A stretch of 64,000 bases of DNA from Myxococcales bacterium (lineage in GTDB: Bacteria > Myxococcota_A > Polyangia > Polyangiales > Houyiibacteriaceae), in the NCBI GenBank assembly GCA_029862185.1, contig JAOTXX010000007.1, positions 1-64,000 on the forward strand, read 5' to 3'. The position numbers and the translations under genes were made by a program. A model generated the notes under the pieces. The model searched no databases. It was given only the letters and a program-made list of their open reading frames with translations, and was not told where the DNA came from. Below are positions 4,891 through 16,075 of this stretch, one piece after another (positions within the stretch are counted from its first letter, which is position 1; every line of letters begins with the position of its first letter).

Positions 4891-6021
4891 ATGGATGAAC
4901 CGGGAAGTGACTTCCGGCGGGAGTTAGAGGCGCGCGGCGTGTCACGTCGCGAGTTCATGGGCTTCTGTTCTGCGATGGCGGTGATGTTTGGTTTGCCGAA
5001 AGGCGCGACGGCCATGATTGCCGACGCGATAGAGAACAAACCAAAGCCAACCCTGGTCTGGCTCAACTTCCAGGACTGTGCGGGGAACACCGAATCATTC
5101 CTTCGTGCGAGTAAGCCGACGGCAGCCGAGGTGATCCTCGATCTGATCTCGATCGACTACCACGAGGTGATCATGGCAGCGGCCGGTCACCAAGCGGAGG
5201 AGAACCTTCACAACGTCGTCAAAAACCAGAAGGGTGCATACCTCGCCGTCGTCGAAGGCTCGATCCCAACCGGCGCGAACGGCGCGTACTGCACCGTTGG
5301 CGGGAAGGCGGCGATCGACATTGCCAACGAGGTATGCGGCAACGCGCTGGCGACGATTGCAGTCGGAACCTGCGCATCGTTTGGCGGTATCCCGGCGGCA
5401 TCGCCAAATCCGACCGGCGCGCTCGGCGTGTCCGATGCGGTGCCCGGTGTGAAGAATCTGATCAACCTCTCGGCCTGTCCGGTGAACGCCCAGAACCTCA
5501 CCGCAACGCTGGTGTATTTCCTGACCTACGAAAGGTTCCCTGCCCTCGACAGGCTGAATCGCCCGCTTTTTGCGTACGGGAAGTCGATTCACGACAACTG
5601 CGAGAGGCGTGCGCACTACGACACCGGACAGTACGTCGAGCAATGGGGCGACGAAGCCCATCGCGACGGCCATTGCCTCTACAAGATGGGCTGCAAGGGC
5701 CCCGTTTCGTTCCAGAACTGTCCGAACGTCGGTTGGAACGACAACACGAGCTGGCCGATCGCGTGCGGCCACGGTTGCATCGGCTGCGCCGAACCGGACT
5801 TCTGGGACAAGATGACGCCGTTCTACGCGCACCTTCCAGGCTTCCCCGGATTCGGCAAAGGATCAAACATCGACAAGGTGGGCTTCTGGGCAGCCATCGG
5901 TGTCACCACCGCGTTCGCCGGGCACACCTTGGTACATCTCGGAAAGAAGCTCGTTGGAACGGGCGCGGATCATGCACCCGAGGGCCCGCCGGAGCGAACC
6001 GATGAAGGAGGCGCAGAATGA
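4891..6021 (+). CDS. hupS: [NiFe]-hydrogenase small subunit, Tat-exported, membrane-anchored
   Basis: 376 codons with a strong GAGGAGG site before ATG 4891. It carries the iron-sulphur clusters that take electrons from the NiFe site. The twin-arginine motif SRREFM (residues 18-23) is followed by a hydrophobic stretch, so the folded dimer is exported. Cluster residues visible: Cys63, Cys161 and Cys196 (proximal), His234, Cys237, Cys262 and Cys268 (distal), Cys277, Cys296 and Cys299 (medial). The second proximal cysteine is replaced: the motif reads DCAGNTES, with Asn66 where C-x-x-C is usual. An extra Cys292 replaces the usual Ser before GHGC. A C-terminal helix at about 329-350 anchors it to the membrane beside the cytochrome b. 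The symbol follows group 1 uptake enzymes; the subgroup is not settled. Confidence 0.93.
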   Translation: MDEPGSDFRRELEARGVSRREFMGFCSAMAVMFGLPKGATAMIADAIENKPKPTLVWLNFQDCAGNTESFLRASKPTAAEVILDLISIDYHEVIMAAAGHQAEENLHNVVKNQKGAYLAVVEGSIPTGANGAYCTVGGKAAIDIANEVCGNALATIAVGTCASFGGIPAASPNPTGALGVSDAVPGVKNLINLSACPVNAQNLTATLVYFLTYERFPALDRLNRPLFAYGKSIHDNCERRAHYDTGQYVEQWGDEAHRDGHCLYKMGCKGPVSFQNCPNVGWNDNTSWPIACGHGCIGCAEPDFWDKMTPFYAHLPGFPGFGKGSNIDKVGFWAAIGVTTAFAGHTLVHLGKKLVGTGADHAPEGPPERTDEGGAE

Positions 6022-7724
6022 CTCATATCGTTGTCGACCCGGTGACCCGCATCGAAGGCCATTTGCGCATCGAAGCGGAGATCGAGGGCGGTCAGGTCTC
6101 CAACGCTTGGTCGTCTTCGACCATGTTCCGAGGGATTGAGATCATTTTACAGGGCCGCGACCCGCGCGATGCCTGGGCCTTTACTCAGCGCATCTGTGGT
6201 GTCTGCACGACCGTGCACGCGATCGCTTCGATCCGTGCGGTCGAAGACGCGATCGGCGCCAAGCCGCCACCCAATGCGCGGATCCTCCGAAACCTGATCA
6301 TCGCGTCCCAGTGCATCCAGGACCACGTGATCCACTTCTACCACCTGCACGCGCTCGACTGGGTCGACATCGTGTCGGCACTCGAGGCGGATCCGGCCGA
6401 AACGTCCGCGCTTGCGCAGTCGATTTCGGATTGGGGAAAGTCCAGTGCGACGTACTTCAAGGGCATCCAGGACCGGGTCAAGGGGCTGGTCGAGCGAGGC
6501 CAGCTCGGGCCGTTCGCCAACGCGTACTGGGGCCATCCGTCCTACAAGCTTCCGCCGGCAGCAAACCTGATGGCGGTCGCGCACTATCTCGAAGCGCTCG
6601 AGTGGCAGCGTGAGTTCATCAAAATGCACGCGATTCTCGGCGGCAAGAACCCGCATCTGCAGAGCTTCCTGGTTGGCGGCATGGCGACTCCGGTCGACCC
6701 GGACAAGCAGGCTTCGCTGAACATCCACACGATCGCGGAGTTCAAGAAGTTGATTGCCGGCGCGCAGGAGTTCGTGAGCAAGGTGTACATCCCGGACCTG
6801 CTTGCGGTCGCTTCGTTCTACAAGGACTGGGCCGGCTACGGCGCAGGCGTCGGCAACTACATGGTGTATGGAGAGTATCCGCTCGACGACGAAGCCAATC
6901 CGGAGCTCTACATTCCATCGGGCATCATTCGCGCGCGCGACATCTCGAAGGTCGAAGAGTTCGATCCTTCGAAGATCACCGAGCAGATCACGCACTCCTG
7001 GTACGACTACGCGGGCGGTGAGGACCAGGCACTGCACCCGTCGGAAGGTGAAACCAAGCCGAACTACACCGGTCCGAAGCCACCATTCGAACGCCTGGAC
7101 ACCTCGAAGAAATACTCGTGGCTGAAGTCGCCCCGCTACGGCGGAGTGCCGATGGAGGTCGGGCCTTTGTCCCGAATGCTGGTCTCGTACGTTCGCGGCC
7201 ACGAGAAGGTGCAAGGCCTGGTCAACCACGTTCTCAAGACGCTCGGTGTTGGACCGGAAGCCTTGTTCTCGACGCTTGGCCGTGTCGCAGCGCGAGGTAT
7301 CGAAACTCAGGTGCTGGTCGACAAGATCGGAGACTGGGTCGACGAGCTGGCCGACAACATGGGCAAGGGTGAGCTTCGCATCCACGACAACAGCAAGTGG
7401 GATCCGGAGAGCTGGCCCGCCGACTCCATGGGAGCTGGTTTCCACGAGGCGCCGCGCGGCTCGCTAGGACACTGGGTCCACGTGAAAGATGCAAAGATCG
7501 AGCGCTACCAGTGCGTCGTTCCGAGCACCTGGAACGCCGGCCCACGGGACTCCGGCGATGCGCCAGGCCCTTACGAGGCAGCCTTGGTCGGGACCCCGGT
7601 CGCCGACCCGGAGCAGCCGATCGAGATCCTGAGGACGGTTCATTCGTTCGACCCGTGCATGGCGTGCGGTGTGCACGTCGTCGAACCCGGAGGGCGCGAG
7701 ATCACTCGCGTGAAGGTGCGATGA
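6018..7724 (+). CDS. hupL: [NiFe]-hydrogenase large subunit
   Basis: 568 codons, start overlapping the hupS stop as ATGA. It holds the NiFe(CN)2CO active site. The four nickel-binding cysteines are present: RICGVC (Cys60, Cys63) near the N-terminus and DPCMACGVH (Cys547, Cys550) near the C-terminus. Fifteen residues (VVEPGGREITRVKVR) follow the conserved His553; this is the tail removed by the HupD-type protease after nickel insertion, so the enzyme matures by the normal route. Other group 1 marks include DPVTRIEGHLRIE at the start. It pairs with the adjacent small subunit and is co-exported by that subunit's Tat signal. Confidence 0.96.
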   Translation: MTHIVVDPVTRIEGHLRIEAEIEGGQVSNAWSSSTMFRGIEIILQGRDPRDAWAFTQRICGVCTTVHAIASIRAVEDAIGAKPPPNARILRNLIIASQCIQDHVIHFYHLHALDWVDIVSALEADPAETSALAQSISDWGKSSATYFKGIQDRVKGLVERGQLGPFANAYWGHPSYKLPPAANLMAVAHYLEALEWQREFIKMHAILGGKNPHLQSFLVGGMATPVDPDKQASLNIHTIAEFKKLIAGAQEFVSKVYIPDLLAVASFYKDWAGYGAGVGNYMVYGEYPLDDEANPELYIPSGIIRARDISKVEEFDPSKITEQITHSWYDYAGGEDQALHPSEGETKPNYTGPKPPFERLDTSKKYSWLKSPRYGGVPMEVGPLSRMLVSYVRGHEKVQGLVNHVLKTLGVGPEALFSTLGRVAARGIETQVLVDKIGDWVDELADNMGKGELRIHDNSKWDPESWPADSMGAGFHEAPRGSLGHWVHVKDAKIERYQCVVPSTWNAGPRDSGDAPGPYEAALVGTPVADPEQPIEILRTVHSFDPCMACGVHVVEPGGREITRVKVR

Positions 7725-8461
7725 CACCCCCGCCGACGGCCGCGGTCAAAGGAGGTGCTCGCCCCCAGGTGAGCCCCCGTCGGCATGACGTTGAAGGCAT
7801 CGAACGAGTCTATGTCTGGGACTTGCTGGTTCGAACGACTCACTGGCTCATCATGGTTTCGGTGTTCATCCTTGCAATTACCGGTGTGTTCATCGGCAAG
7901 CCATACCTGATCCCCTCGGGGCCGCCCGGCGAGCACTTCGTGATGGCGACGGTGAAGGTCGTGCACTTCTATACGGCCATCATCTTTGCGCTCGCGGTTG
8001 CATCGCGCATCGCATGGATGTTCGTGGGTTCGTACTACGCGCGCTGGCATCAGTTTGTACCGGTCGGCAAGCGACGACGCGGCGATGTGTTGAAGATGTT
8101 GAAGTTCTATTCGCTGGTCGACAAAGAGCCGCCGCTCAACGTCGGTCACAACCCCTTGGCGGGCTTGACCTATCTCCTGGTGTTTGGCCTGTATCTCACG
8201 TTGATCCTCACCGGCTTTGCTCTCTATTCGGTGAGCGCAACGGGCTACATGGAGTTCTGGGAGTTCCTGCTTCCAATCTTCGGCGGCGCACAGACGGCGC
8301 GCTGGATCCATCACCTGGCGATGTGGTTCCTTCTGGGCTTCGTCGCCCACCACATCTGGAGCGCAATGCTGGTGTCTCGCATCGAAGGGATGGGCCTCAT
8401 CGACTCACTGTTCAGCGGCTACAAGTTCTTACCAAAGAGCTGGCGCAATCGGGATGACTGA
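7721..8461 (+). CDS. hupC: Hydrogenase cytochrome b subunit (Ni/Fe-hydrogenase b-type)
   Basis: 246 codons, ATGA overlap with hupL. Four hydrophobic helices carry the histidines expected to hold two b haems: TTHWLIM in helix 1, VHFYTAI in helix 2, and HHLAMWF plus VAHHIW in the last helix. Family members anchor the hydrogenase dimer on the outer face of the cytoplasmic membrane and pass electrons to quinone. The N-terminal 25 residues are Pro- and Arg-rich and cytoplasmic. Length and helix pattern match HyaC/HupC. Confidence 0.9.
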   Translation: MTPPPTAAVKGGARPQVSPRRHDVEGIERVYVWDLLVRTTHWLIMVSVFILAITGVFIGKPYLIPSGPPGEHFVMATVKVVHFYTAIIFALAVASRIAWMFVGSYYARWHQFVPVGKRRRGDVLKMLKFYSLVDKEPPLNVGHNPLAGLTYLLVFGLYLTLILTGFALYSVSATGYMEFWEFLLPIFGGAQTARWIHHLAMWFLLGFVAHHIWSAMLVSRIEGMGLIDSLFSGYKFLPKSWRNRDD

Positions 8462-9002
8462 CCGCACGCCGGTCCTAGTTCTGGGGCTCGGCAATGTTGT
8501 CTGCATGGACGACGGCGCTGGTATCGCCGCCGTTCACAAACTCATTCGTGAGTACCAGTTCCCGGAGGGTGTCGTCGTGCTAGACGGCGGCACGCTCGGG
8601 CTCTCGCTTCTGCCTCTGGTCGACAGCGCCGATCAGGTGATCCTCGTCGACGCGATCGGAGCCGACGGGCCGCCCGGAACGCAGGTCCGGATCGAAGGCG
8701 AAGAGGTGGCTCCGGCGGTCTACGAGCGCCTTTCCCCCCATCAAATTGGGGTTGCGGACCTGCTTGCAGGGGCGAGCCTGCTCGATCGGTATCCAGACCG
8801 CGTGGTGATTCTCGGAGTTGTTCCGGAGTCGATCGAGCTCGGGCTCGAACGAACGCCTGCCGTCCAGGCAAGCATCCCCGAGCTCGTCGAGCGCGTGGTC
8901 GAAGAGCTCAGATCACTAGGGTATCCACCGGTCCCATCTACGGAGAGTCGCGATGAAGGCCATGGGAGCACTGCTCATGTCGCTCGCACTCTTGGGGTGT
9001 AG
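8454..9002 (+). CDS. hupD: Hydrogenase maturation endopeptidase
   Basis: 182 codons, start 8 bases inside the end of the cytochrome b gene. The family removes the C-terminal tail of the large subunit once nickel is in place. Seen: GLGNVVCMDDGAG at the N-terminus, LVDAI (metal-binding Asp), and LSPHQIGVADLL (metal-binding His). These match the three nickel-sensing positions of HybD; the first is Asp rather than Glu, as in several relatives. The last 20 or so residues, after LRSLGYPPV, lie over the start of the next gene and are unlike the family, so the reading frame probably just runs on. Confidence 0.9.
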   Translation: MTDRTPVLVLGLGNVVCMDDGAGIAAVHKLIREYQFPEGVVVLDGGTLGLSLLPLVDSADQVILVDAIGADGPPGTQVRIEGEEVAPAVYERLSPHQIGVADLLAGASLLDRYPDRVVILGVVPESIELGLERTPAVQASIPELVERVVEELRSLGYPPVPSTESRDEGHGSTAHVARTLGV

Positions 9003-9351
9003 CGCCGAAGTCAGCCCGTTCTCCGTGGACTACGACAAAGTCGAGGTCCCCATTGCCCAACTTTCGTCTGACGAAGCGCGCGCACGCGGCAGGACACTGT
9101 TCAAAGAGAAGTGCGCGCTGTGTCACGGCGATCGGGCAGACGGAAACGGGGTGCGGAGCCAGGGGTTGTCTCGGAAGCCAGTCGATTTCGGCAGCCCCGG
9201 CTGGAGATCGAACGCGACCGCGATCACGGTGTTTGAGGTCTTGAGCGAAGGCAAGCGCGGTACTTCGATGCCGGCCTGGCCGACCCTGAGCGACGGGCAG
9301 AAGTGGGACCTCGTCGCTTATGTATTGAGCGTCGCCGAGGATGGACCGTGA
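8953..9351 (+). CDS. Monohaem cytochrome c lipoprotein
   Basis: 132 codons, with GGAGAG 6 bases before ATG 8953, overlapping the end of hupD by 50 bases. A lipoprotein signal peptide ends in the lipobox LLGC (Cys16), so the mature protein is lipid-anchored outside the cytoplasmic membrane. One haem site CALCH lies near residue 55 and a distal Met is available in GTSMPAWP near residue 108. The fold fits a small class I cytochrome c. Its place inside the hydrogenase operon suggests it takes electrons from the hydrogenase or its cytochrome b, or links them to another acceptor; this is inferred from context only. Confidence 0.85.
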   Translation: MKAMGALLMSLALLGCSAEVSPFSVDYDKVEVPIAQLSSDEARARGRTLFKEKCALCHGDRADGNGVRSQGLSRKPVDFGSPGWRSNATAITVFEVLSEGKRGTSMPAWPTLSDGQKWDLVAYVLSVAEDGP

Positions 9352-11627
9352 TGGCTGGGCATCGCATCGAAATCCGAGGAACCGTGCAAGGGGTCGGTTT
9401 TAGGCCCTGGGTCTACCGACTGGCGCGTAGGGTAGGTGTCGTCGGAAGAGTGCGAAACGACCCTCGGGGCGTGACGATTGAGGCGTTCGCAACCAAATCC
9501 ATCCTCGACCGATTTGTGGCGGAATTACAGAGAGATACCTTGCCCGCGGCGCAGATCGCAGAGCTCCGCGAGACGAGGATTCCGGACGAGAACCTCGATG
9601 CCTTCGTGATCGAGTCGAGCGATGCCATCGGCCAGAAGGCGCTGTCGATTCCCCCCGACCTCGCAACCTGTGAGGACTGCAGAAACGAAATTTTGGATCG
9701 TCACGAGCGGCGCTTCGGATACGCCTTCACCAACTGCACGGCGTGCGGGCCTCGCTTCACGATTGCGACGGGGATACCGTACGATCGCGCAGCCACGACG
9801 ATGTCGGGGTTCCTGATGTGCGCGGCATGCAAGGCCGAATACGACGACGTCCAAGACCGACGCTTTCATGCACAGCCCAATGCCTGTCCGGAATGCGGGC
9901 CGGCGCTCAGCTTGGATCGACTTGATGGTCGAGCGGCGACTGCGATCAACGCGCTCGCAGACGCGGCGGAGCTCTTGTCACGTGGCGGAGTGGTTGCGGT
10001 CAAAGGCTTGGGGGGGTTTCATCTCGCATGCGATGCAACCGACGGCGCCGCAGTTCGTCGGCTCCGGGAACGCAAGCATCGTGACGAGAAGCCATTCGCC
10101 GTCATGGTAGGGAGCCTCGCTGCAGCACAGGCACTTGCGGAGATCCGTGCCGATGAAGAGGCCCTTCTCACGGCGGCCGAACGGCCCGTGGTCCTTCTGC
10201 GCCGGCGCGAAGACGCGGGTCTCGCAGTCGAAGTCAGCCCGGATACCTCCCTCGTTGGCCTATTTTTGCCCTATACGCCGCTCCACCACCTGCTTCTCGA
10301 GGCGGTTCGGCGACCTCTCGTCATGACCTCGGCCAACGTGTCCGACGAACCAATTTGCTACGAGAACGACGAAGCTAGGGAGCGTCTAGAGGGGATTGCG
10401 GATGCGATCTTGCTCCACAATCGTGAGATCGCGATGCGCTGCGACGACTCGGTCAGCCGAGTGATCGCCGGGGTGCCTACCCTCATGCGCCGGTCGCGCG
10501 GCTTCGTGCCGAGGCCGTTCTATTTGTCTCGCCCGGTGACGCGTCCGGTCCTCGCCTGCGGCGCGCATCTAAAGAACACGTTTTGCATTGCGATGGGCGA
10601 CACCGCTTACTTCGGACCGCACATCGGCGACCTCGAAACCGTGGCTGCGCTAGATTTTTTCGAAGAAGCGATCGAACGGATGCAAACGATCCTCGAGGTT
10701 CGTCCAGATATCGTTGCACATGATTTGCACCCTGGATACCTGTCGACGCGGTACGCGAAGGCGCGCGACGATGTGACCCTGGTCGGCGTTCAGCATCACC
10801 ACGCACACGTGGTGAGCCTGATGGCGGAGCACGGGATGCAGGGCACGGTGCTCGGCGTGGCGTACGATGGCACGGGTTTTGGCGAAGACGGAACGTCTTG
10901 GGGTGGCGAGCTTCTTCTTTGTTCTGCAGAGCGATACGAACGCTTGGCGACGTTTCGGCCCATCCGCTTGGCGGGCGGGGATCTCGCCATGCGCGAGGTA
11001 TGGAGAATCGGCTTCGCGCTCCTACACGACGCTTACGACGGCGCACCACCAAGCGATTCGATTTCGCTTTTGGGTGATGTGAGCTCGAAGTCCATTGAGC
11101 TGGTGAAGCAGATGATCGAGCGCGAGCTCAACGCGCCGCAAGCGCGGGGTGTCGGACGTTACTTCGACGGCCTTGGCGCGCTGGCATTGGGGCGCGCTCG
11201 CTCGACGTACGAAGGTCAGGTGGCGATTGCATGGGACCAGGTCGCAAACGAATCGGTCTCTGACGCATACCCCTTCGAGATCGACCGGTCGCACACGCCC
11301 TGGGAAGTGGACCTCCGGCCGGCGGTGCGCGCCGCCGTCGACGACCTGCGGGCCGCAACACCGGCCGGCGACGTTTCGGCGCGCTTCCACAATGCACTGG
11401 TCGCGGTCACGGCAGAGCTTGTGAAGGCGCTTTGGGCAGACCGCGGCGAGCTGCCCGTGGCGTTGACCGGCGGTGTTTTTCAGAACGCTTGGCTTGCCGG
11501 CGGGATTGAGAAGGAAATATCCAATAAAAACAGAGTTTTACGGCACAGTGAAGTTCCGCCCGGAGATGGCGGAATCGCCCTCGGTCAGGCCTTGATCGCG
11601 GACGCCATTCTGGGAGACAAAGGTTGA
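9351..11627 (+). CDS. hypF: Carbamoyltransferase HypF
   Basis: 758 codons from ATG 9351 (TGATG overlap with the cytochrome stop). HypF uses carbamoyl phosphate and ATP to make the thiocarbamate on HypE that becomes the cyanide ligands of the NiFe site. Domains in order: acylphosphatase (GTVQGVGFRPWVY, residues 8-22), two zinc fingers (Cys107, Cys110, Cys129, Cys132 and Cys157, Cys160, Cys179, Cys182), YrdC-like (VVAVKGLGGFHLACDA), and Kae1-like (HHHAHVVSLMAEHG, AYDGTGFGEDG). All catalytic landmarks and the full length are present. Confidence 0.96.
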   Translation: MAGHRIEIRGTVQGVGFRPWVYRLARRVGVVGRVRNDPRGVTIEAFATKSILDRFVAELQRDTLPAAQIAELRETRIPDENLDAFVIESSDAIGQKALSIPPDLATCEDCRNEILDRHERRFGYAFTNCTACGPRFTIATGIPYDRAATTMSGFLMCAACKAEYDDVQDRRFHAQPNACPECGPALSLDRLDGRAATAINALADAAELLSRGGVVAVKGLGGFHLACDATDGAAVRRLRERKHRDEKPFAVMVGSLAAAQALAEIRADEEALLTAAERPVVLLRRREDAGLAVEVSPDTSLVGLFLPYTPLHHLLLEAVRRPLVMTSANVSDEPICYENDEARERLEGIADAILLHNREIAMRCDDSVSRVIAGVPTLMRRSRGFVPRPFYLSRPVTRPVLACGAHLKNTFCIAMGDTAYFGPHIGDLETVAALDFFEEAIERMQTILEVRPDIVAHDLHPGYLSTRYAKARDDVTLVGVQHHHAHVVSLMAEHGMQGTVLGVAYDGTGFGEDGTSWGGELLLCSAERYERLATFRPIRLAGGDLAMREVWRIGFALLHDAYDGAPPSDSISLLGDVSSKSIELVKQMIERELNAPQARGVGRYFDGLGALALGRARSTYEGQVAIAWDQVANESVSDAYPFEIDRSHTPWEVDLRPAVRAAVDDLRAATPAGDVSARFHNALVAVTAELVKALWADRGELPVALTGGVFQNAWLAGGIEKEISNKNRVLRHSEVPPGDGGIALGQALIADAILGDKG

Positions 11628-11646: not shown

Positions 11647-11970
11647 ATGTGCTTAGGTGTTCCCGGCAAGGTGGTCGAAGTCGATCGCGAGAACCAGATC
11701 GCGACCGTCGATTTTTGGGGCGTGAAGAAACAGGTGCGCCTCGAGGTTTGTGATGCGCCGGTCGATCCGGGCGACTTCATCTTGAATCACGTGGGCTTTG
11801 CGATTCGGCGGATTCCACCGGAGGAGGCCGCCGAGACCTTGGCCCTGTACGACGAGCTTCTACGGCTTGCCGACGAGCACGATTTGATGACGGCCGATGT
11901 GCGCGCCGAGATCGCCGCAGCGCCCGATGCCACGGATCGCTCCAAGAGAACATCCAATGAATCTCAATGA
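11647..11970 (+). CDS. hypC: Hydrogenase assembly chaperone HypC
   Basis: 107 codons. The family-defining N-terminus MCLGVPGKVVEV is intact; Cys2, exposed after Met removal, carries the Fe(CN)2CO unit and docks it on the large-subunit precursor. HypC works with HypD as the scaffold for iron-ligand assembly. A GGAG site lies 8-9 bases before ATG 11647. The C-terminal 25 residues extend beyond typical HypC and overlap the start of hypD by 14 bases. Confidence 0.95.
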   Translation: MCLGVPGKVVEVDRENQIATVDFWGVKKQVRLEVCDAPVDPGDFILNHVGFAIRRIPPEEAAETLALYDELLRLADEHDLMTADVRAEIAAAPDATDRSKRTSNESQ

Positions 11971-13105
11971 CCCGCTGGCTCAGTTGAAGTTTCGCGACCC
12001 GGAGCGCGCGCGAGGCCTTCGCGAGGCGCTCGATCGCCTAGTGCATCAAGCCGACCACGCCCCGGTGTCGGTGATGCACGTGTGCGGAAGCCACGAGCAG
12101 GCGATCGCAAAGTTTGGGCTGCGAGCGGCTTTTCCCTTGGATTTGCAGGTGATTATGGGCCCTGGGTGCCCGGTGTGTGTGACGGACGTCCCCGAGGTGG
12201 ACGAAGCCGTCGCGCTCGCAAGACAGGGTGTTCGGATCGCTTCGTATGGCGACATGCTGCGGGTGCCTGGTACCTCGCAGTCGCTTGCGGACGCGAAAGC
12301 CGAGGGCGCGAACGTCGACGTGGTGTACAGCGTGACACAGGCCGTCGAGCTCGCGAGGGAACACGACGAGGAGATCGTTTTTTTCGCGTCCGGGTTTGAA
12401 ACGACGGCGGTCGCCACGGCGGCTGTCTTGGTCGACGATCCGCCCGACAACTTTTCGGTGCTCTCTGCGCACAAATACATACCCCCGGTGATGGAGATCG
12501 TCGCCGAGATGCCGGAGACCAAAATCGAAGGGTTCCTCGCAGCAGGCCACGCCGCCACGATTACCGGCTCGGCCGTGTTCGAAAAGTTCGTCGAGCGGCA
12601 TCGCCTGCCCGTGGTGATCGCAGGCTTCGAACCACTCGACGTCATGGCAGGCCTGGTCAAGCTCATGGAGGTCATCAACAGCGGCGAACCAAGAGTCGAG
12701 AACGCCTTTCCGCGCTGTGTCACACGCGAAGGGAACGTTCACGCACAGAAGCTCTTGTGGAGGGTGTTCCGGGCGACCGGAGGCCGCTGGCGTGGCATCG
12801 CCCATGTCCCGAACGGGAACCTTCGTCTGCGCGATGAGTTCGCGAAGTACGACACCAGGAGGCGCTTCACCATCGACGCGTCGGCGCTTTGGAGTTACGC
12901 ACCGCCAAAGCTGGTTCAGCAGTGCCAGTGTGGTGACATCATGGCGGGGATCGCATCACCGGCCGACTGTCAGCTATTCGGGAAGGAATGTACGCCCGAT
13001 ACGCCGGTCGGCGCTTGCATGGTGAGCGCGGAAGGCACCTGCAAGATCTGGCATCAGTACGGGGGTCGACCCGATCTTCGTTCGATCAAGCGAGGGGCTG
13101 CATGA
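11957..13105 (+). CDS. hypD: Hydrogenase formation protein HypD
   Basis: 382 codons from ATG 11957. HypD is a [4Fe-4S] scaffold that, with HypC, builds the Fe(CN)2CO centre. Visible motifs: HVCGSHE with the catalytic cysteine, GPGCPVCVTD, FASGFETT, and the C-terminal cluster region CQCGDIMAG, ADCQLFGKECTP and GACMVSAEGTC. The order and spacing match the family. It overlaps both neighbours slightly (hypC by 14 bases, hypE by 4), consistent with a coupled hyp unit. Confidence 0.96.
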   Translation: MNLNDPLAQLKFRDPERARGLREALDRLVHQADHAPVSVMHVCGSHEQAIAKFGLRAAFPLDLQVIMGPGCPVCVTDVPEVDEAVALARQGVRIASYGDMLRVPGTSQSLADAKAEGANVDVVYSVTQAVELAREHDEEIVFFASGFETTAVATAAVLVDDPPDNFSVLSAHKYIPPVMEIVAEMPETKIEGFLAAGHAATITGSAVFEKFVERHRLPVVIAGFEPLDVMAGLVKLMEVINSGEPRVENAFPRCVTREGNVHAQKLLWRVFRATGGRWRGIAHVPNGNLRLRDEFAKYDTRRRFTIDASALWSYAPPKLVQQCQCGDIMAGIASPADCQLFGKECTPDTPVGACMVSAEGTCKIWHQYGGRPDLRSIKRGAA

Positions 13106-14139
13106 CGCGCAACGCCCGCTTCGTCGATGAACGCATCACGCTCAAGTACGGAACGGGCGGTGGTGCGATGCGCGCGCTGATCGAGCAGGTGTTCGCAAAG
13201 GGCCTCGGCGACGTTGAAGACGGCATCGGCCTCGGGGCAATGGACGACGGCGCGGCCATCCGCATCGGCGACCAGTACCTCGTCATCGCGACCGACTCGC
13301 ACGTCGTGCAGCCCATCGAGTTTCCTGGCGGCGACATCGGACGCTTGGCGATTTCTGGAACCGTCAATGATCTCGCCATGATGGGAGCAACGGAGCCCTT
13401 GGCGTTGACCTGCGCGGCAATCATCGAAGACGGCTTCCCGAGAGATGATCTGGTGCGGATCTGGGCGTCGATCCGCGCAACCTGTGAAGAGGCCGGAACC
13501 ACGATCGTCACCGGCGACACGAAGGTGATGGGCCACGGTGAGCTCGATGGCCTGGTGCTGAACACGACTGGCGTAGCGCTGACGTCGCGCTTGGTTTCCG
13601 ATTCTGGCTTGCGCCCGGGTGACAGGATTTTGGTCACCGGAACGATGGGTGATCACGGGCTTGCAATCATGGCGACGCGCAACGAGCTTGCATTGGAGAC
13701 GACTCTAGAGTCCGACGTCGCGCCGATACACACGCTGGTCCGACGAGCCTTGGACGTCGGCGGGGAGGGCGTGGTTGCTCTCAAGGACCCCACCCGCGGC
13801 GGGCTGTCGAGCGCGCTCCACGAGATGGCGGAGAAGAGCAGCGTCGGAATCATCGTAGACGAGACCGCCGTACCACTGCGCGACGAAGTTCGCGCCGTGG
13901 GCGAGCTGCTTGGAATCGACCCCCTCGTTTCCGCGAATGAAGGGAAGGCGGTCTTTGGTCTTCGACCCGAGGTCGCAGCGGGGGTGCTCGATGCGATCCG
14001 CTCGCACCCTCTCGGACGGAACGCCGCAATTGTTGGTGAATGTGTCGCCGATCGGCCGGGATTCGTGATTCTCGACACCGGGTTTGGAAGCCGTTTGCTG
14101 GCCGAAGCCGAGGGCGAGCTGCTCCCGAGGATTTGCTGA
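13102..14139 (+). CDS. hypE: Carbamoyl dehydratase HypE
   Basis: 345 codons, ATGA overlap with hypD. HypE accepts the carbamoyl group from HypF on its C-terminal cysteine and dehydrates it with ATP to thiocyanate. The C-terminus reads LLPRIC, exactly the required ending. The AIR-synthase-like ATP fold shows MDDGAAIRIGD and DPTRGGLSSALHEMA. Early in the protein LKYGTGGGAM matches the family start. It is intact and of standard length. Confidence 0.96.
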   Translation: MTRNARFVDERITLKYGTGGGAMRALIEQVFAKGLGDVEDGIGLGAMDDGAAIRIGDQYLVIATDSHVVQPIEFPGGDIGRLAISGTVNDLAMMGATEPLALTCAAIIEDGFPRDDLVRIWASIRATCEEAGTTIVTGDTKVMGHGELDGLVLNTTGVALTSRLVSDSGLRPGDRILVTGTMGDHGLAIMATRNELALETTLESDVAPIHTLVRRALDVGGEGVVALKDPTRGGLSSALHEMAEKSSVGIIVDETAVPLRDEVRAVGELLGIDPLVSANEGKAVFGLRPEVAAGVLDAIRSHPLGRNAAIVGECVADRPGFVILDTGFGSRLLAEAEGELLPRIC

Positions 14140-14142
14140 GCC

Positions 14143-14985
14143 ATGAGCGAAATGAAGCATATACGGGTCGAGCGGGAAGGGGCGGTTGGCTTTCTGACGA
14201 TTGCGCGCCGTGAGCGTTTGAACTCCCTCGATGTGGAGACCGCTCAGGATTTCCGAAGGGCGGGTCTGCAGCTCGCGCGCGATCGCGACGTCCGCGCGGT
14301 CGTGGTTCGAGGCGAGGGCGGCGTGTTCTGCAGCGGCGCCGACTTGAAGTACATCCGCGACGGCGGCGATCGCGATGACCTTGGTTACCTGCAACCGGAG
14401 ACCCGCAAACCAGACGAAGGCTACGGGGAGATTTTCAAACAGATCCTCGAGTACATCCACAGCACGATCTCGGAGATACGGCGCGCCCCGAAACCGTTCA
14501 TCGCCGCGGTCGATGGCCCTGCCGCTGCCGGGGGTTTCGGAATCGCGATGAGCTGCGACCTGGTGATCGCCTCCGAGCGCGCCTGGTTCGAATGGGCCTA
14601 CCTCAAGACGGGGCTCACCGGCGCGGAGAGCTCGACCTTCTTCTTGCCTCGCTTGGTCGGGCTTCGGAAGGCGCTTGAGCTCGTGCTCCTGAACCCGCGT
14701 TTGAGCGCGCGCGAAGCGCTCGACTGGGGCCTAATTAACCGAGTAGTTTCAAATGGTTCGCTTGATTCGGAAGCGGCCCGGATCGCCGCCCAGCTAGCGG
14801 AGTCACCCACGGCGGCGGTGGGCGTGGCGAAGGGCCTCCTCAATCAGGCTGCCGGCATGGATCGTCTCGACGTTCACCTCGATTCGGAGCTTACCGAGCT
14901 CGCACGGATCGCCGACGGCCCCAACTTCGCAGAAGGTCTCGCGGCTTTCTTCGACAAACGCTCACCGGAGTTTGAAAGCGAGTAG
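14143..14985 (+). CDS. Crotonase-superfamily protein lacking the usual hydratase glutamates
   Basis: 280 codons lying 3 bases after hypE and 3 bases before hypA, so part of the hyp transcript. The crotonase fold is clear: the oxyanion-hole segment GVFCSGADLKYI (residues 60-71) and GPAAAGGFGIAMSCDL (125-140) followed by LPRLVG and the AREALDWGLINRVV helix. Against rat mitochondrial enoyl-CoA hydratase the two catalytic glutamates are missing: the position of Glu144 is Gly133 and that of Glu164 is Tyr153 (Glu150 is nearby). It is therefore unlikely to be a standard hydratase. An isomerase, thioesterase or hydrolase of the superfamily, or a scaffold, is possible. No such protein is a known Hyp factor. 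Confidence 0.8.
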   Translation: MSEMKHIRVEREGAVGFLTIARRERLNSLDVETAQDFRRAGLQLARDRDVRAVVVRGEGGVFCSGADLKYIRDGGDRDDLGYLQPETRKPDEGYGEIFKQILEYIHSTISEIRRAPKPFIAAVDGPAAAGGFGIAMSCDLVIASERAWFEWAYLKTGLTGAESSTFFLPRLVGLRKALELVLLNPRLSAREALDWGLINRVVSNGSLDSEAARIAAQLAESPTAAVGVAKGLLNQAAGMDRLDVHLDSELTELARIADGPNFAEGLAAFFDKRSPEFESE

Positions 14986-14988
14986 CGC

Positions 14989-15336
14989 GTGCACGAGTAT
15001 TCCATCGTCGCTTCTCTGATCGATCGCGTGCAGCACGAAGCTGCGCTGCACGGCGGCTCTCGCGTGCATCGCCTGCATGTGAAGATCGGCGAGCTGTCCG
15101 GCGTGGAAGTCGACTTGCTGAAGACCGCGTTCGACACGTTTCGCGAGAGAACAATTTGTGCTGGCGCGGAGCTTGCGATCGACACGGTTGCCCCGGCTTG
15201 GGCCTGTCCATCCTGCGACCGGAGCCTCGCACTTGGTGCGATCTTGCGGTGCGACGATTGCGGAAGGCCGGCTCGGATGGTGCAAGGCGACGAGATCATC
15301 TTGGAACGGATCGAAATGGAGGCCCCCGATGTGTGA
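14989..15336 (+). CDS. hypA: Hydrogenase nickel incorporation protein HypA
   Basis: 115 codons from a GTG start, giving MHEYSIVASLID; His2 and the free N-terminus form the nickel site, so this start is fixed by function. The zinc site has CPSC (73, 76) and CDDC (88, 91). HypA takes nickel from HypB and delivers it to the large-subunit precursor. Length and sequence are standard. It follows the crotonase gene by 3 bases and overlaps hypB by 8. Confidence 0.94.
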   Translation: MHEYSIVASLIDRVQHEAALHGGSRVHRLHVKIGELSGVEVDLLKTAFDTFRERTICAGAELAIDTVAPAWACPSCDRSLALGAILRCDDCGRPARMVQGDEIILERIEMEAPDV

Positions 15337-16075
15337 AACCTGCGGTTGCGGTGACCCGGAAATCGTACCGATCGAGGTGCAGGAGCGAATCCTCTCGGAC
15401 AACGACGCCCAGGCAGGGCATAATCGTAGTCATTTCAAAGGCTTAGGTGTCTTGGCGATCAACCTGATGGGTTCGCCCGGAGCCGGGAAAACCGCCGTTC
15501 TAGAGGCGACTTCCAAGGCCGCAGCGGGGCGCCTCAAGCTTGGCGCGGTCAGCGGTGACCTTGCAACCGAGCGTGACGCCGATCGACTCAATGCCGCGGG
15601 CATCGTTTCGTCGACCATCACCACGGGGTCCGCCTGCCATCTCGATGCGCGGCTCGTGCACCACGCCCTGCACCACTTCCCGTCGGGCGACCGCGATATC
15701 TTTTTCATCGAGAACGTTGGCAACTTGGTGTGCCCGGCGATCTACGATCTCGGGCAAGCCGCCAACGTGGTGACGCTTTCGGTGACCGAAGGTGAAGACA
15801 AGCCGCTCAAGTACCCGGTCATGTTTCAAAAGGCGGATCTGGTGTTACTGACCAAGGTCGATTTGATTCCGCATTTGGATTTCGATGTCGCCGCGGTCGA
15901 AGACGCGCTCGCCCGAGTGATGCCAGGAGCCAAGATGCTGAAGGTGTCGGCAAGAACTGGCGAGGGAATCGACGTTTGGCTGCACTGGCTCGAGGAGCGC
16001 CGTCCTGCAGCCGTGGACCGGCCGCCTGAGGCCCATCACGAGCACTCACACGAGCACCAGCATGAGCACCACTAG
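15329..16075 (+). CDS. hypB: Hydrogenase nickel incorporation GTPase HypB
   Basis: 248 codons from ATG 15329. The N-terminus MCETCGCG carries the high-affinity CxxCGC nickel motif. The GTPase core shows the P-loop GSPGAGKT (48-55), ENVGNLVCP, and TKVD for guanine recognition. The C-terminal 15 residues are rich in His and Glu, a second metal-storing region at the opposite end from that of most HypB proteins. It hydrolyses GTP to release nickel to HypA. It overlaps hypA by 8 bases and the next gene by 14. Confidence 0.95.
   Translation: MCETCGCGDPEIVPIEVQERILSDNDAQAGHNRSHFKGLGVLAINLMGSPGAGKTAVLEATSKAAAGRLKLGAVSGDLATERDADRLNAAGIVSSTITTGSACHLDARLVHHALHHFPSGDRDIFFIENVGNLVCPAIYDLGQAANVVTLSVTEGEDKPLKYPVMFQKADLVLLTKVDLIPHLDFDVAAVEDALARVMPGAKMLKVSARTGEGIDVWLHWLEERRPAAVDRPPEAHHEHSHEHQHEHH

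Follow-up and report, generated by a model that had tools for sequence, protein, structure and literature searches.

Does the [NiFe]-hydrogenase encoded in a 64,000-nucleotide stretch of a Myxococcales genome (the window: positions 1 to 64,000 of contig JAOTXX010000007.1, forward strand) have an unusual proximal iron-sulfur cluster, and if so, is it a curiosity of one sequence or the property of a class of enzymes? In its small subunit, the C-x-x-C motif that should supply two proximal ligands is replaced by C63-A-G-N66, in the context Q-D-C63-A-G-N66-T-E-S (Table 1). The original prediction had read the motif in this way, with Asn specified by AAC and with Cys161 and Cys196 retained, and all of this is confirmed; the medial ligands C277, C296 and C299 and the distal ligands H234, C237, C262 and C268 are likewise kept. 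What follows establishes the substitution as a trait of a clade of enzymes that is best filed as group 1f, finds no other cysteine that takes over from the missing one, and considers the cluster that might be held by the three remaining thiolates.

Table 1. Hydrogenase locus of the window: genes, and residues of the small subunit discussed in the text.
Feature	Position	Strand	Remarks
[NiFe]-hydrogenase small subunit, group 1f type	4891..6021	+	376 aa; TIGR00391 412 bits, PF01058, PF14720; Tat signal, C-terminal membrane helix 324-358
Proximal-cluster motif C63-A-G-N66-T-E68	5077..5094	+	read from sequence/translation
Asn66 codon AAC, replacing fourth proximal Cys	5086..5088	+	
Cys149	5335..5337	+	enriched in Asn/Asp enzymes, not required
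Cys161, proximal ligand	5371..5373	+	homologue alignment
Cys196, proximal ligand	5476..5478	+	homologue alignment
Val198	5482..5484	+	column Pro in 37/48 four-Cys rows, 0 Asn/Asp rows
Hydrogenase large subunit	6018..7724	+	RICGVCTTVH and DPCMACGVH intact
b-type cytochrome of Ni/Fe hydrogenase	7721..8461	+	TIGR02125 over cut-off
Hydrogenase maturation protease	8454..9002	+	family profile
Small c-type cytochrome, predicted lipoprotein (lipobox LLGC)	8953..9351	+	overlaps protease gene end
hypF	9351..11627	+	family profile
hypC	11647..11970	+	family profile
hypD	11957..13105	+	family profile
hypE	13102..14139	+	by sequence and place
Enoyl-CoA hydratase/isomerase-like gene	14143-14985		between hypE and hypA
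hypA, GTG start	14989..15336	+	family profile
hypB, start inferred	15329..16075	+	by sequence and place

Operon and host genome

The small subunit gene heads an operon that continues with the genes for the large subunit, cytochrome b, protease and cytochrome c, followed by hypF, hypC, hypD, hypE, the hydratase-like gene, hypA and hypB. The expectation of a respiratory enzyme bound to the membrane is borne out. A cytochrome c gene also follows the protease gene in most relatives of the Asn clade (L042-L044, L046, L047, L049, L055, L056), and none was found beside the Roseiflexus or Geobacterales copies; the lipoprotein cytochrome may serve this subclade as an additional electron carrier. A similar hydratase-like gene adjoins hypA and hypB in two relatives (L026, L029), where it lies upstream of the hydrogenase.

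The host genome holds three genes for the heme-copper oxidase subunit COX1. A search of the same genome found no other NiFe hydrogenase, no nifH over cut-off, no RuBisCO and no CoxL, a gene content consistent with a heterotroph that respires H2 as a supplement.

Conservation of Asn66 and assignment to group 1f

Changing AAC to a Cys codon requires two base changes, which is confirmed, and the judgment that a single sequencing error is unlikely can now be put more firmly: congeneric genomes rule it out. Asn is present in 12 of the 12 genomes of the genus (window counted) whose homologue spans the motif, always as CAGN, and the codons of the motif vary synonymously among them, including AAC/AAT for Asn itself. 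CAGN or CCGN also appears in homologues that are 62-71% identical, from Acidobacteriota, Pseudomonadota, Nitrospirota and other Myxococcota; a search of plasmids for relatives yielded only matches of <60% identity. Occurrence of the same residue in independent genomes that differ by synonymous codon changes argues that Asn66 is real and under purifying selection, and with operon and NiFe motifs intact as well, the probability that it reflects a sequencing or assembly error, or an enzyme in decay, is negligible.

With the motif columns left out, a tree of 113 small subunits places the window's enzyme in a 26-row clade in which every member has Asn (SH-aLRT 100). This clade is nested in a 66-row clade (SH-aLRT 86, with support of 95 for an inner 57-row branch) composed of 45 Asn, 12 Asp and 9 Cys rows, among which are two from Roseiflexus (L063/L067; Asn, CAGN) and those of Geobacter/Geomonas (Asp; CxGD in Geobacterales). 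The C. necator MBH and E. coli Hyd-1 and Hyd-2 lie outside it. Group 1f replaces this proximal Cys by Asn or Asp, as the window's CAGN does, and enzymes of Roseiflexus and Geobacter that carry one of these residues there have been assigned to it (2016, PMC5364354); because the window's enzyme shares their clade, group 1f is its best filing, an assignment that combines the tree with the names given to these enzymes in the literature.

Three other groups were considered and set aside. The group 1d references, enzymes of the [4Fe-3S] cluster type, fall outside the window's clade, and the supernumerary cysteines of that group (Cys19 and Cys120 of Hyd-1) are absent from the window's small subunit, which has Gly at both columns (G65, G166). 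Group 2a has the same C-x-G-N motif (CSGN in Huc, at the same column of PDB 7UTD/7UUR), but its Huc-like representative (L017) is split off by a long branch with support of 100: the motif is shared, the ancestry of the trait is not. For group 1h, the motif C-D-G-D given in the original prediction is found at the matching column of C. necator HofK, and differs from CAGN.

It also follows from the literature that Asn in this position, which the original prediction did not know as a natural occurrence, is not new: it is a published trait of group 1f, and is on record for group 2a as well (PMC5364354), in Huc (CSGN) and in Nostoc HupS (PMC4070099, PMC6616624). Replacement of Cys at proximal position 2 by Asn in Nostoc punctiforme and by Asp in Geobacter was described in 2014 (PMC4070099). 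This analysis adds two points: the residue has changed repeatedly among Asn, Asp and Cys, and a nearby proline is absent from all Asn/Asp enzymes.

Switching at position 66 and the search for a substitute ligand

Over all rows of the best tree, at least 11 changes among Asn, Asp and Cys have occurred at position 66, although fewer are required if only the well-supported branches are counted. Nine members of the 66-row clade have Cys at this position, two of them from Terriglobia (L073, L082) and the others from Chloroflexota (L064, L081, L088-L090, L109, L116; Anaerolineae and related), so that the clade contains natural four-Cys versions of the enzyme. For six of these (L081, L088-L090, L109, L116), no cytochrome b gene was found in the stretch examined. 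CAGN/CTGD also occurs in group 1 enzymes outside the group 1f clade, in Campylobacterota (L111, L115) and Nitrospinota (L110, L117), on long branches whose placement is uncertain. Two rows from the window's own order (L018, L019) read CGGD instead of CSGN and branch with Huc-like L017; their group is unsure: they at first resembled group 1h, and the best match of L019 among solved structures is Huc. Asn/Asp switching may have taken place in that branch also.

Does the residue at position 66 follow the respiratory life of the host? COX1 is present in 35/36 genomes with Asn, 9/12 with Asp and 5/9 with Cys (57 genomes; Fisher test, Asn vs Cys, p = 0.004, ancestry ignored). The association is suggestive, but shared ancestry and incomplete genomes confound it; since the tree offers only four independent pairs, it gains no phylogenetically controlled support.

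An alternative that would leave the cluster unchanged is that some other cysteine provides the fourth ligand, making a normal four-Cys [4Fe-4S]. The sole candidate is Cys149, found in 53 of the 62 Asn/Asp rows and in just two of the 48 Cys rows. Its distribution nevertheless fails it in both directions: nine Asn/Asp rows have Thr, Val, Ala, Gly or Glu in its place, while two Cys66 rows have it, and none of the cysteines in the alignment is both invariant across the 48 Asn rows and absent from the Cys rows. Cys149 also sits where a predicted helix ends, 12 residues ahead of the proximal ligand Cys161. We regard its service as a ligand as very improbable. The original prediction had named, as an outcome that would speak against an altered cluster, many relatives with the same Asn and a normal cluster held by another cysteine; the relatives are indeed many, but in the alignment no other cysteine takes over.

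The loss of the fourth Cys is accompanied by a second change. The proline that stands two residues after the last proximal Cys in most four-Cys rows (C-P-P; Val198 in the window) is missing from every Asn/Asp row, and from Huc (CPA) and HofK (CPV) as well. It may represent a shared second-sphere change beside the cluster, with too few independent switches for a test. In the large subunit, the columns that tell Asn/Asp enzymes apart from Cys enzymes offer no obvious partner residue; His213 of the NPH motif is retained, and we take it for the His that adjoins the proximal cluster. An AlphaFold2 model of the small subunit alone, without cofactors, has the expected fold, with [NiFe] small subunits as its best PDB matches, and at a mean pLDDT of 69 is too poor for ligand geometry.

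Proposed function, cluster type and related enzymes

We judge it probable, at about 0.85, that the locus specifies a functional, aerobic [NiFe] uptake hydrogenase of group 1f, in which three Cys hold a proximal cluster of raised potential. This reading draws together the CAGN motif and Asn clade, the published Asn/Asp of group 1f, the activity of an engineered Cys-to-Asn enzyme (C81N, below), the [3Fe-4S] cluster of Huc, the lack of a replacement Cys, the intact operon and the COX1 genes. The enzyme would be exported by the Tat pathway and anchored in the membrane with cytochrome b, delivering electrons from H2 to an aerobic respiratory chain; these would pass from the NiFe site to the proximal cluster, then through the medial and distal clusters to cytochrome b and the quinone pool. 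The proximal cluster would be bound by the thiolates of Cys63, Cys161 and Cys196, with Asn66 beside its fourth corner.

As to what occupies that corner, the C-x-G-N motif has two reported outcomes: the proximal cluster of Huc is [3Fe-4S] by cryo-EM at 1.52 Å and by EPR (PMC10017518), whereas for Nostoc HupS a [4Fe-4S] cluster with three Cys ligands and one Asn has been reported (PMC6616624). A characterized proximal cluster of a group 1f enzyme was not found in the literature searched. By analogy with Huc, a [3Fe-4S] cluster has somewhat better than even chances, and would be the likelier alternative to a [4Fe-4S] cluster with Asn or water as its fourth ligand. That Asn66 instead genuinely ligates a [4Fe-4S] cluster, as reported for HupS, is a serious contender of rather lower probability; the overall function would be the same and only the cluster type would differ. 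Asp occupies the same column in the Geobacterales group 1f enzymes and, as a parallel in group 1h, in HofK, and the repeated switching of position 66 suggests that the fourth corner is in use; it is the directly observed cluster of Huc, with its identical C-x-G-N, that weighs against Asn ligation.

Either cluster type should raise the potential relative to a four-Cys [4Fe-4S] and favor H2 oxidation in air. The potential of [3Fe-4S] clusters is given as about 250 mV higher than that of [4Fe-4S] (PMC10017518), which would favor H2 oxidation over H2 production. The suggestion that Asn66 may alter redox potential or O2 tolerance is plausible, by extension of potential, affinity and O2 tolerance from other enzymes. 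Oxidation of H2, both aerobic and sub-atmospheric, has been associated with group 1f (PMC6776052). A more sweeping proposition is that loss of the fourth Cys together with loss of the Pro after Cys196 constitutes a convergent high-potential three-thiolate device of groups 1f, 1h and 2a, switched by host aerobicity in group 1f, and that the window's Myxococcota clade comprises unrecognized atmospheric H2 oxidizers; this we consider rather unlikely. Quite apart from it, group 1f presents a natural series of similar enzymes that have Asn, Asp or Cys at a single position of the proximal cluster, a series that would allow the Huc and HupS outcomes to be compared in Tat-exported group 1 enzymes and would also suit analysis of effects on potential, affinity and O2 tolerance.

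The related systems compare with the window's enzyme as follows. The engineered HynS C81N of A. macleodii, which has Asn in place of the second proximal Cys, is active in H2 evolution, as C81D also is active, but it is artificial and set in a background with two other engineered ligand changes (PMC4070099). HofK of C. necator (group 1h; PDB 5AA5) has lost the fourth proximal Cys at the same column and follows the last one with C-P-V, but has Asp rather than Asn and a different operon. The group 2a enzymes, Huc of M. smegmatis and Nostoc HupS, share C-x-G-N at the same column and have C-P-A, not C-P-P, after the last proximal Cys; identity to the window's protein is only ~27% (L017), HupS is without a Tat signal (PMC6616624), and the oligomeric Huc itself reduces menaquinone (PMC10017518). 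From the group 1f enzymes of Roseiflexus, Geobacter and Acidobacterium, which belong to the same clade, carry Asn/Asp for the same Cys and are followed by genes for cytochrome b and protease, nothing essential differs, apart from the lipoprotein cytochrome c gene that the window's subclade adds after the protease: to group 1f, the window contributes a well-supported myxobacterial branch.
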